Positions 60,025 through 64,000 of a DNA stretch of 64,000 nt are shown here, in pieces (position 1 is the stretch's first letter; the number at the start of each line of letters is the position of its first letter). The stretch is from Sphingomonas sp. NFR15 (lineage in GTDB: Bacteria > Pseudomonadota > Alphaproteobacteria > Sphingomonadales > Sphingomonadaceae). The notes beneath the pieces were generated by a model, which did no database searches, was not told the origin of the DNA, and saw only the letters and a program-made list of their open reading frames with translations. The translations under genes were made by a program, and so were the position numbers. The stretch spans positions 811,753 through 875,752 of the forward strand of contig NZ_FMWX01000001.1 in the NCBI RefSeq assembly GCF_900103265.1. The letters run 5' to 3'.

Positions 60025-60043
60025 GCGGCACACGCAGTTCTGA

Positions 60044-60468
60044 GCCGCTCGGGTCGAGCGCGGTCGTGACACCGCGCACGGCACGCGGGGCATATCCCTC
60101 GACTTCGCTCGGGACGAGCGGAGGTTTGCGTTAGCCTGGTCCGGGGCAGAGCGTCCGTTTGCTCCTGCGGAACAGTTGCCGCCTCGCTTGCACACGGCGA
60201 TGGCGGCAGCGCGATATCCAAACCGTTCGTGTCGAGCGTAGTCGAGACACCACAAGGCACGCGGGGCCTCCCTCGACTTCGCTCGGGACGAACGGAGGTT
60301 TGCGTTAGCCTGGTCCGGGGGCAGAGCCTCCGTTTGCTCCTGCGGAACAGTTGCCGCCTCGCTTGCACACGGCTGGCGGCAGCGCGCGATCCAAACCGTT
60401 CGTGTCGAGCGAAGTCGAGACACCACACGCCACGCGGGGCCTCCCTCGGCTTCGCTCGGGACGGGCGG
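60044..60468. repeat. Tandem 174-bp repeat built on the dispersed palindrome
   Basis: A 174-bp unit (60121-60294, again 60295-60468) begins GAGGTTTGCGTTAGCCTGG and ends in a GTCGAG/CTCGAC palindrome; a partial preceding copy (60044-60120) has only the palindrome. The two full units differ at scattered positions and by single-base indels. No gene in the 447 nt between the PfpI and ligase genes. Confidence 0.85.
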
Positions 60469-60471
60469 ATA

Positions 60472-61836
60472 TTATGTGAGCGCAGCGTCGGACAGCGGCT
60501 GTTTCGCCTTGCGGAACGGGCGCCATGCCGCCTCCGAGCGTTTGCGCGCGAGATAGGTGTCCAGCCCGATCTGCGCGCCGATCAACTGGTAGATGAACGG
60601 CTGGAACGCGATGCCGACGAACGACGCGCCGAGCAGGTAGATCAGCAGCGCCGATTGCAGCGCGCCGGCCAGTGGCGCGATCCATTGCTCCTCGGGCGGC
60701 GCCTTGCGGTAGCGGCGGCGCAGCATCTCCATGCGGATAATGCCGATGATGTTGAGCCCGCCCCACAGGATGATGCCGGGCCAGCCCTGCTCGCCGAGCA
60801 TCTCGAAATAGGAGCTGTGATAGGCGCGCGCGCGGTCGGTGGTCGGGGTGTGTTTGATCGTCAGGCTGTTGCCGCTGCCCTCGGTGGTGACGAGATCATA
60901 GTTGAGCACGTCCTGCCGGTACATGTCGAAGCCGCCGCCGAACGGATGCGTCTTCGCGTAATTCCACGTCCATTGCCAAACGGCGAGCCGGGTCGAGGCG
61001 GATTCGTCGGCCTTGTAGGTCTTGATCGTTCCCATCCGCGCGACGAAGGCGGAGGGCAGGAACGGCACCGCGACCAGCCCGATCGCGGCGATCAGCCCGA
61101 GGTAGAGCATCTTGCGCTTCACGTCGCGCAGCATCAGCACCGCCGCCAGCACGACGCACAGCAGCCCGGTGCGCGCCGAGGTGCCGACCGGGATCATGCA
61201 GCATGCGAATACCAACGCGTAGCAGAACAGCTTCACCTTCCAGTCGGGCGGGAACACCGTGCCGTGGTTGGAGAACCACAGCACCAGCGGCACGATCGCC
61301 ACCGCCACGGTCGAGATGATCGAGCCTTCGTACAGACCGCTGTTGTTGGACACCATCAGGTTGAGCGAGCCGTACCCGCCGCCCGACACCACCGTCTTGA
61401 TGCCGCCGACGATGATGATCGACGAGGCGGAAAGCACCATGAACAGCAGCAGCGATTCGATCCTGAGCCTGGTGCGCAGCGTCAGCGGCAGGAAGGCGGC
61501 GAACACCAGCGCCTTCCACACCCAATCCCATTTATCGAGTGCTTCCAGCGGGAAGTCGGCGTTGCGCGTGGTGATTCCGCAATAGAGCAGCAGCAACAGG
61601 ATGATGATCTGGCGCGGCGCGATCCGCACGTCGCGCTTGTCGTCGATCAGCGCCCAGCTCAGCACCGCCGCGCAGAAGGCGATCAGCGAGATCGGCATCG
61701 CATTGAGCAGCAGATAGGTCAGCCGCTGCGGGCTGACGATGTCGATATAGATATAGGCGAGGATGAAGATGAACGGCTTGCGCAGGCCCGCCAGGAAGAA
61801 GGCGCCGAGGAACGCGACGAAGACGAGGTCACGCAC
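60472..61836 (-). CDS. Exosortase-A-associated O-glycosylation/O-antigen-ligase-like protein
   Basis: 454-aa Wzy/WaaL-type protein with about 11 membrane helices. RDLVFVAFLGAFFLAGLRKPF and DIVSPQRLTYLLLNAMP resemble the N-terminus of exosortase-A-associated ligases; the large periplasmic loop has RARAYHSSYFEMLGEQGW. GTG 61836 is chosen because it matches that family start and because the stop of an upstream 55-aa ORF overlaps it; the longer frame from 61869 is possible. Likely polymerises or transfers polysaccharide in the periplasm. Confidence 0.85.
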   Translation of the reverse strand: MRDLVFVAFLGAFFLAGLRKPFIFILAYIYIDIVSPQRLTYLLLNAMPISLIAFCAAVLSWALIDDKRDVRIAPRQIIILLLLLYCGITTRNADFPLEALDKWDWVWKALVFAAFLPLTLRTRLRIESLLLFMVLSASSIIIVGGIKTVVSGGGYGSLNLMVSNNSGLYEGSIISTVAVAIVPLVLWFSNHGTVFPPDWKVKLFCYALVFACCMIPVGTSARTGLLCVVLAAVLMLRDVKRKMLYLGLIAAIGLVAVPFLPSAFVARMGTIKTYKADESASTRLAVWQWTWNYAKTHPFGGGFDMYRQDVLNYDLVTTEGSGNSLTIKHTPTTDRARAYHSSYFEMLGEQGWPGIILWGGLNIIGIIRMEMLRRRYRKAPPEEQWIAPLAGALQSALLIYLLGASFVGIAFQPFIYQLIGAQIGLDTYLARKRSEAAWRPFRKAKQPLSDAALT

Positions 61837-61996
61837 CGGGCCGGTCCTCTTCCGGTCGCCGGGCGGCACGCGGGCGGCCGCGGATGTCGCGGTCGAACGG
61901 CCCCGGTTCGTGATCGAGATCGGGCCGCTTGAGCAGTGCCCAGATCGCGAGCAGCATCAACCCGTGGCTGATCAGAAGCGCGAAATTGTCGATCAT
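61829..61996 (-). CDS. Small membrane protein coupled to the ligase
   Basis: 55-aa frame: MIDNFALLISHGLMLLAIWALLK forms one membrane helix, then an acidic and Arg/Pro-rich tail (RPDLDHEPGPFDRDIRGRP). AGGGGT lies nine bases before ATG 61996, and the TGA lies 3 nt inside the ligase gene, so translation is coupled. I do not know a family. It could be a membrane partner of the ligase (inference). Confidence 0.7.
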   Translation of the reverse strand: MIDNFALLISHGLMLLAIWALLKRPDLDHEPGPFDRDIRGRPRAARRPEEDRPGA

Positions 61997-62096
61997 GCTT
62001 GATACCCCTGGAACGCGCTTCGCGGCTTCGCCGGCACCGCGAATACGCGCCGCGAGTTGAGGCTCCGTTAAGCACTGGCGTGCGAGGGTGGCGGTG

Positions 62097-63335
62097 ATGA
62101 AAATCCTCCACGTTCTCGACCACGGTTTGCCGTTGCAGAGCGGCTATACCTTCCGCACCCGCGCGATCCTGAGGGCGCAGCAGGCACGCGGCTGGCAGGT
62201 CGCCGCCGTCACGGGCACGCGCCAGGGCGCATCGGCGGCGGCGGCCGAGACGGTCGACGGCATCGACTTCCACCGTACCGCGCCGATCGGCGCCTCGCCG
62301 CCGGTGCTGGGCGAGCTGCGCGAAATCCGGGCGCTGTCGCGCCGCGTCGCCGAGGTGGCGGAGACGTTCCGCCCGGACATCCTCCACGCGCATTCGCCGG
62401 TGCTCGGCGCGCTGGCCGCGCTCCGCGTCGCGCGGGCGACGCGGCTGCCGCTGGTCTATGAGATTCGCGCCTTCTGGGAGGACGCGGCGGTCGGCAATGG
62501 CACCGGGCGCGAGGGATCGGCGCGCTACCGGGCGACGAAGATGCTCGAGACCTGGGCGGTGCGCCGCGCCGATGCCGTGTCGGTGATCTGCGAGGGCCTG
62601 CGCGGCGACCTGATCGCGCGCGGCATCGCGCCGGACAAGATCCTGGTTTCGCCCAACGGGGTCGATCTCGCGCTGTTCGGTACCCCGCTTGCCTATGACG
62701 ATGCGCTTGCGCGGCGGATCGGCGTCACGGGAGCCGAGGTGATCGGCTTCATCGGCAGCTTCTATGATTACGAAGGCATCGACGATCTGATCGCGGCGAT
62801 GCCCGCCCTCGTCGCGGCGCGCCCGACCGCGCGGCTGCTGCTGGTCGGCGGCGGGCCGATGGAAGCGGCGCTGCGCGCGCAGGCGGCGGCCTCTCCGGTG
62901 GCGAGCCATATCCATTTCGTCGGCCGCGTGCCGCATGATGAAGTCGATCGCTATTACAGCCTCGTCGACATCCTCGCATATCCGCGCAAACGGATGCGGC
63001 TGACCGACCTCGTCACGCCGCTCAAGCCACTGGAGGCGATGGCGCAGCGCCGGCTGGTCGCCGCGTCGGATGTCGGCGGGCACCGCGAGCTGATCCGCGA
63101 TGGGATCACCGGCACCTTGTTCCCGCCCGGCGATCCCGCCGGGATCGCCGCCGCGCTCGCCGGTCTGCTCGGCGACCGCGACGGCTGGGAGGAGCGCCGC
63201 GACCGCGGCCGCGCCTTCGTCGAGGCCGAGCGCAACTGGGCGGTCAACGTCGGTCGTTACGAACCTGTTTACCAAAAACTTACCAGTGCGGTGGCATCAC
63301 CCCGCCCATGGTCGCGTCCCCCCGTCAGCGTCTGA
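62097..63335 (+). CDS. Exosortase-A-associated GT4-family glycosyltransferase
   Basis: 412-aa GT-B enzyme. MKILHVLDHGLPLQSGYTFRTRAIL is the recognised N-terminus of the PEP-CTERM/exosortase-A-associated group; PLVYEIRAFWEDAAVG, VSPNGVDLALF, GFIGSFYDYEGIDDLI and PLKPLEAMAQRRLVAASDVGGHRELI are GT4 motifs, the last containing the nucleotide-sugar glutamate region. Builds surface polysaccharide on the cytoplasmic side. ATG 62097 is used; divergent from the small membrane protein gene. Confidence 0.92.
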   Translation: MKILHVLDHGLPLQSGYTFRTRAILRAQQARGWQVAAVTGTRQGASAAAAETVDGIDFHRTAPIGASPPVLGELREIRALSRRVAEVAETFRPDILHAHSPVLGALAALRVARATRLPLVYEIRAFWEDAAVGNGTGREGSARYRATKMLETWAVRRADAVSVICEGLRGDLIARGIAPDKILVSPNGVDLALFGTPLAYDDALARRIGVTGAEVIGFIGSFYDYEGIDDLIAAMPALVAARPTARLLLVGGGPMEAALRAQAAASPVASHIHFVGRVPHDEVDRYYSLVDILAYPRKRMRLTDLVTPLKPLEAMAQRRLVAASDVGGHRELIRDGITGTLFPPGDPAGIAAALAGLLGDRDGWEERRDRGRAFVEAERNWAVNVGRYEPVYQKLTSAVASPRPWSRPPVSV

Positions 63336-64000
63336 TCCTGCCCATCGCGCCGCTCGGCGCGGGCGTGACCGGCGCGTTCACCGCCTTGCTGTTCCTCCTG
63401 ATGCCGACCGATGCGCTCGAATCGCTCGTCGTCGACAGTGGTGTCGCCACCCTGCTCGACGCGGCGCGGCCGCCGCTTGGGCTCACCGCGCGCGCGGTGC
63501 TGGCGCTCTCGGGCGGCGGCGCGGGCGCGCTGTTGGCGTGGATCGCGCTGTTCGTCGCGTTCGGCACGCGGCTGGTGATCCTCAACGGGTCGATCGCGCA
63601 CGGCGATGCGGTGCCGCCCCAGCGCCGTGCGGATGCGCATCCCGACGCGCCGCCGCGCCAGCCCGTGTTCGCCAACCGCGACCTTGGCACACCCTTCCTC
63701 GATGTCCGCGCCGAGGCGCCCGCCGCGGTGCCGATGGGCGCGGCACGCGCGCGGCCGCTGCCTGCCAATCTCGACGTGCCGCTGGCGCTGTTCGATCCGG
63801 TCTCGTTCGCCGCGCGCACCGCGCCCGCGCCCGATCCGGTCGAAATCCTCGAACCCGCCCGCGAACAGCGTGACACCGCGCCGATCCCGATCCGGCGCGA
63901 CACCGCCGACGTGCTCGGCCTGATCGCCGCCTCGATGCGATCCGCCCCGCCGGTGCGCCGCGCCGAGGCCGAATCGCCCGCCTCGATCCGCGCGCTGCTC
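63308..64000 (+). CDS. Unknown membrane protein, C-terminus cut by window edge
   Basis: 231 codons, still open at the window end. It starts inside the last 28 nt of the glycosyltransferase gene in another frame (MVASPRQRLILPIAPLGAG). Two hydrophobic helices (about 16-34 and 66-86) are followed by a long Ala/Pro/Arg-rich hydrophilic region without motifs. Codon use matches its neighbours. Possibly part of the same surface-polysaccharide locus; function unknown. Confidence 0.7.
   Translation, partial: MVASPRQRLILPIAPLGAGVTGAFTALLFLLMPTDALESLVVDSGVATLLDAARPPLGLTARAVLALSGGGAGALLAWIALFVAFGTRLVILNGSIAHGDAVPPQRRADAHPDAPPRQPVFANRDLGTPFLDVRAEAPAAVPMGAARARPLPANLDVPLALFDPVSFAARTAPAPDPVEILEPAREQRDTAPIPIRRDTADVLGLIAASMRSAPPVRRAEAESPASIRALL

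Follow-up and report, generated by a model that had tools for sequence, protein, structure and literature searches.

The window analysed here, 64,000 nucleotides of Sphingomonas sp. NFR15, contains on its minus strand, at 61829-61996, a small open reading frame of 55 codons that is a genuine conserved protein-coding gene under purifying selection. With a probability of roughly 60%, its product is a dedicated accessory subunit of the DUF5935-type, WaaL-like, XrtA-associated ligase encoded directly downstream. We prefer this reading because the gene is real, is under purifying selection, co-occurs almost perfectly with the ligase, is retained in trans where the two genes have parted and encodes one predicted helix. 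The original prediction had placed a small membrane protein at this position and left its strand unstated; the frame is present, and both its conservation and codon-level selection rule out a chance frame, while the interpretation then given is borne out in part.

The frame starts with an ATG at 61996, encodes the 55-residue product MIDNFALLISHGLMLLAIWALLKRPDLDHEPGPFDRDIRGRPRAARRPEEDRPGA and ends with a TGA stop at 61831-61829, so that its end overlaps the GTG start of the ligase at 61836 by 8 nt. Direct reading of the sequence reveals a Shine-Dalgarno-like AGGGG (62005-62009, minus strand) 8 nt 5' of the ATG. The window has a candidate for the good ribosome site originally claimed. Across the bacterial family the corresponding signal is real but modest: 53 of 129 small ORFs are preceded by a sequence that matches the anti-Shine-Dalgarno over 4 bases or more, and in an upstream stretch used as control the count is 23 of 129.

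AlphaFold2 predicts one transmembrane helix at residues 4-23 (pLDDT block means of 91 and 97 in residues 1-20 and of 76 in residues 21-30) and models the charged, Pro-rich tail with low confidence (pLDDT 57-64), which fits the one helix and charged tail described at the outset. The mean number of Lys/Arg is 0.03 in residues 1-6 as compared with 1.95 in residues 20-26, suggesting, by the positive-inside distribution of charge, an N-out/C-in topology. With a single helix and a length of 32-88 aa among 129 family members, the protein resembles single-pass accessory subunits, which are shorter than about 100 aa. The consensus of these members, [MVL]IDxFxLxLTHGLxxxAxWRLxxRxDLDxE, contains five nearly invariant residues, namely D3 (126 of the 129 rows), H11 (126), L13 (123), R20 (117) and D28 (117). 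The window protein carries an Ala at position 20, where many relatives of the same genus have a hydrophobic residue, and this substitution at an otherwise nearly invariant position weighs against the subunit reading.

The window protein matched 0 families of Pfam, NCBIfam and PHROGs at the curated cut-off or E <0.001, and the 129 members gave no accepted match in Pfam (best E 0.026) or NCBIfam (best E 0.018), the PHROGs scan having covered the window protein alone. A match of the small-protein profile to cornichon (whole-sequence E 0.0011, best-domain i-Evalue 0.087) was dropped, as it looks like a resemblance between hydrophobic helices. The source genome contains a single copy of the gene; the second match comprises 20 residues at E 0.117.

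Protein sorting and a polysaccharide are linked in exosortase A systems. According to family profiles and a structure model, the neighbouring gene (60472-61836, minus strand) encodes an exosortase A system-associated O-glycosylation ligase (TIGR03097; DUF5935 plus Wzy_C), scoring 196.7 bits against TIGR03097 with its curated cut-off of 188.1. Position 1 of the DUF5935 profile aligns to the GTG at 61836, which bears out the earlier choice of this start over the longer ORF starting at 61869. A second Shine-Dalgarno-like sequence, AAGAGGA (61845-61851, minus strand; direct reading), lies within the small ORF, 8 nt 5' of this GTG. The ligase model (mean pLDDT 79.0) found WaaL (7tpg) as its best Foldseek match (prob 1.00, E 1.4e-05, TM 0.59/0.65) and no other match at E <0.001, indicating that the modelled protein has a WaaL-like fold. 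Among the best 80 of 570 loci, the nearest titled relative is Sphingomonas populi 3-7, at 97% across the ligase domain. Intergenic repeats are suggested between the DJ-1/PfpI gene and the end of the ligase gene, where peptide-like strings recur in several frames (60030-60470).

A divergent glycosyltransferase of the XrtA system (TIGR04063; 628.6 bits, cut-off 442.05) occupies 62100-63335 on the plus strand. For the protein following it (63308-64000, plus strand), neither Pfam nor NCBIfam gives a match at E 1; this protein is again found beside the glycosyltransferase in the loci, described below, where the small gene and the ligase are separated. Upstream of the small ORF lies a TTAAC-N6-TCAAC sequence, here TTAACGGAGCCTCAAC (62056-62071, minus strand), a conserved promoter-like element that is followed by GcTAgGgC. 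Of 209 loci, 173 have it about 68 nt 5' of the small ORF, the mean in shuffled sequence being 0.0. It may resemble a CtrA box. In its exact form it was rejected as the box of a genome-wide regulon, the source genome having 2 exact copies, one of them here, and the control count also being 2.

To what extent does the small gene accompany the ligase elsewhere? Of the 199 family genomes, 136 contain DUF5935, with 132 strong (E 1e-58 or better) and 4 weak matches. Upstream DNA was taken first from 130 family loci (30 plus 100), and with an HMM grown from 11 seeds a homologue of the small ORF was detected directly upstream and on the same strand in 129 of them (E <1e-4), the exception being genome G091, whereas the best E in the opposite-strand control was 0.007. 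The upstream ORF is also present in G005 and G099, bringing the total to 131 of 132 family loci with strong DUF5935. The same arrangement is seen in 80 of 80 further publicly titled loci (the best 80 of 570, partly from the same genomes as the family set, so that the two sets are not fully independent) and at 124 of 130 ligase genes in 151 genomes of the same genus. The search for this ORF before exosortase-A-associated ligases elsewhere, proposed as a check of the original prediction, therefore gave a positive answer in all three sets. Two of the titled loci, Bacillus sp. 2B10 (L231) and Arthrobacter sp. TPD3018 (L244), are of the Sphingomonas type and are probably mislabelled records; L231 clusters with S. 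hankookensis in the ligase tree.

The overlap with the ligase start that had been predicted is likewise seen in most relatives. It measures 8 nt, the commonest value, in 73 and 4 nt in 11 of the 129 family ORFs, and 8 nt in 74 of the 80 titled loci. As start codons the 129 ORFs use ATG (69), GTG (30) and TTG (30).

A profile built from the 129 members (A1) was run on the 199 family genomes at E 0.01 and matched 134 of them, namely the same 132 that have a strong ligase plus G106 and G072, whose matches are marginal and partial and which are without DUF5935; the presence side of this count is nearly circular, as A1 was made from 129 of those genomes, but the absence side is not. On that side, 61 of the 63 family genomes without DUF5935 gave no match at all. 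The genus set is a cleaner test because 149 of its 151 genomes lie outside A1: both genes are present in 129 genomes, the small gene alone in 1 (G859), the ligase alone in 0 and neither in 21. Co-occurrence with one client is therefore conserved in the family as well as in the genus set. In G859, which is without a DUF5935 ligase, the glycosyltransferase is split over several frames and a short form of the small protein is kept, pointing to decay or to an assembly error.

The strongest alternative holds that the small protein acts in the same XrtA polysaccharide pathway with another partner, an acyltransferase, a flippase or the exosortase, and that its place next to the ligase reflects shared expression; we regard this as possible but on balance unlikely. 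As to the exosortase, PF09721 is found in 166 of the 199 family genomes, comprising 127 of the 132 with a strong ligase and 39 others. These 39 are without a strong DUF5935 ligase, and in 5 of the 132 strong-ligase genomes a PF09721 match is absent. The small protein tracks the ligase, not the exosortase.

This association belongs to the strong-DUF5935 ligases. In the four family genomes with weak DUF5935, no such ORF was found in the three frames read and no A1 match genome-wide, and at 18 weak-DUF5935 loci (L157-L174; 17 from other classes plus G040 of the family, which falls in both weak sets) no such upstream ORF was found at E 1 or better. This suggests that the companion sets the strong-DUF5935 ligase subfamily apart from the weak-DUF5935 ligases of other classes. 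Strong DUF5935 is rare beyond the family: at E 1e-30 it occurs in 7 of 385 genomes of the class, five of them from the same family. G313 and G407, which represent two further families of this class, carry a homologous ORF immediately 5' of their DUF5935 ligase; in both it is the best A1 match of the whole genome, though with weak E values of 0.06 and 0.7. A look-alike ORF precedes the strong DUF5935 ligase of G815, from another class (E 0.12 in a small search); the whole-genome profile search does not select it, which weighs against the subunit reading.

The ligase genes of the genus set without an adjacent small gene are six in number (those of G091, G954, G891, G879 and G868 and the second ligase of G918) and form one clade with 100/100 support in a tree that comprises 76 ligases and samples every second row of the publicly titled loci. 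Each of the six genomes retains the small gene at the old locus, with the ligase elsewhere. Loss of the frame in relatives keeping the ligase had been named in the original prediction as the observation that would speak against it: the adjacent frame is indeed missing at these six genes of a single clade, but every one of the six genomes keeps the small gene at another site. An obligatory coupling of the two genes is contradicted by this clade. The detachment looks, from the tree, like one event rather than several independent ones, and this weighs against the subunit reading, as does the fact that G918 (L272) also has a second, adjacent pair of small gene and ligase, possibly acquired.

At the old locus the order is glycosyltransferase, small gene, acyltransferase, DJ-1/PfpI gene and topoisomerase IB, and the small gene overlaps or abuts the acyltransferase gene. 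Pfam supports the assignments as acyltransferase, DJ-1, topoisomerase IB and MscS, Acyl_transf_3 being confirmed in 3 of the 6 genomes. That the small gene of this one clade precedes an acyltransferase while the ligase sits elsewhere is in favour of an acyltransferase as partner, and so is the order small gene, ligase, acyltransferase in G155 of the same genus, where the acyltransferase is recognised by sequence likeness. In the window, however, about 450 bases separate the ligase from the next gene, so that there is no acyltransferase there. The gene order of G155 also fits an origin of the detached clade by loss of the ligase from between its two neighbours; alternatively, the ligase may have been replaced by a diverged one from elsewhere.

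The detached small proteins continue to be constrained, their core having a pN of 0.03-0.28 and a pS of 0.25-0.70, with pN<pS in all 15 of the non-independent pairs. At the five relocated ligases (G918 excluded), the promoter-region element lies 76-83 nt upstream in three by pattern, with near forms seen by eye in two. In four of these five (G091, G954, G879 and G868; L138, L264, L268 and L270) an ORF of 10-11 codons (e.g. MRRAAPLPIA), unlike the small protein, ends 3-7 nt before the ligase. Our reading of this clade is that of a split: one site has retained the protein, the other an ORF resembling a leader. It thereby constitutes a natural experiment which separates coupling from protein function.

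These short ORFs, together with the 8-nt overlap in the majority of family ORFs and titled loci, favour a second alternative, in which the small ORF is a mere leader that opens or feeds the ligase start and whose peptide is functionless. We consider this quite improbable. The peptide sequence of such a leader should be free of selection, but when 87 disjoint pairs are compared across 31 core codons the in-frame pN/pS is 0.47, as compared with 1.28 and 1.87 once the frame is shifted, and dN<dS holds in 85 of the 87 pairs; the lack of in-frame stops is given by construction, open frames having been chosen. D3, H11, L13, R20 and D28 are nearly invariant, the core is constant where tail and spacing vary, and the protein is kept in trans where the ligase sits elsewhere, all of which argues against a leader. 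Finally, although GC-rich minus-strand ORFs are common in the window, a spurious ORF arising by chance in GC-rich DNA is refuted because sequence, frame and place are conserved across the family and selection acts at the codon level, the in-frame pN/pS being well under that of the shifted frames and the opposite-strand control giving nothing of comparable strength.

As an accessory subunit of the ligase, the small protein would span the inner membrane once, N-out/C-in, with its charged tail in the cytoplasm. Helix 4-23 might pack against the ligase, and the protein could stabilise the ligase, tune it or present the lipid-linked substrate to it. A physical contact and a functional effect on the ligase are what we infer. 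The overlap would put both proteins on one message, and, judged by its geometry, the two are probably coupled in most species; an overlap of -8 nt is among the three enriched co-directional overlap geometries named in PMC12548453.

A first run of mean-field DCA (209 rows) on the small protein paired with the N-terminus of the ligase was suggestive, with z values up to 6.1. In a joint model, the top pairs, joining small-protein residue 18 with ligase residues 13, 16 and 23, were no higher than pairs involving the glycosyltransferase, so that coevolution established no contact. In this joint model the divergent glycosyltransferase served as a phylogeny-matched control (181 of the 209 loci gave a glycosyltransferase and 178 rows were used), and the top scores were alike for small protein and ligase (2.08), small protein and glycosyltransferase (2.00) and ligase and glycosyltransferase (2.13). 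Without the control block, the real pairing reached 2.93 as compared with top values of 1.62-2.51 in ten row permutations. A bolder and rather doubtful extension would make the whole WaaL/Wzy-like ligase class a two-subunit enzyme, its second subunit a one-helix protein with a nearly invariant helix His near the membrane substrate site of the ligase, and would let the small subunit co-decide the attachment target of the polysaccharide. If true, the small subunit, and not the ligase alone, would decide what the exosortase A polysaccharide attaches to.

The small gene represents a widely conserved family which is called hypothetical in one public record and missed in another. The Sphingomonas parapaucimobilis record lists it as "hypothetical protein" (WP_347091853.1), again with an overlap of 8 nt. 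On a Qipengyuania citrea plasmid (L276, 2742-2897, minus strand) the GTG-started gene is missing from the gene table, which is described as incomplete and which instead shows a hypothetical ORF opposite to it. Among the matches listed from the open PMC literature, the titles and abstract starts contained no description of the small protein. A nearly obligate small companion provides a second handle on a ligase which is itself named "putative" (TIGR03097).

Tiny one-helix subunits encoded together with their enzyme are known in CydX, KdpF and CcoQ. The small protein differs from them in having no accepted family match, another client and another gene order; the KdpF model NF011326 gave weak matches in 3 of the 129 members (best E 0.031). 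The WaaL O-antigen ligase (7tpg) is similar in fold to the modelled neighbouring ligase, and the title of the 7tpg entry names the ligase alone. In the promonan cluster of Sphingomonas sp. LM7, PMC11340318 reports a 64-aa ORF of unknown family, apparently PrmB to judge from the paper's table, whose deletion left colony form and EPS unaffected. By description, both are small ORFs without a known family that belong to polysaccharide clusters of Sphingomonas; the promonan ORF, however, lies, according to PMC11340318, between the genes for a sugar-phosphate transferase and an outer-membrane protein and not beside an XrtA ligase. AcrZ, a short membrane protein which, according to PMC7267776, binds and tunes the large polytopic AcrB pump, is by description alike in being a small single-helix partner of a large membrane protein, whereas here the putative client is a glycan ligase, and the gene lies upstream of its client and overlaps it.
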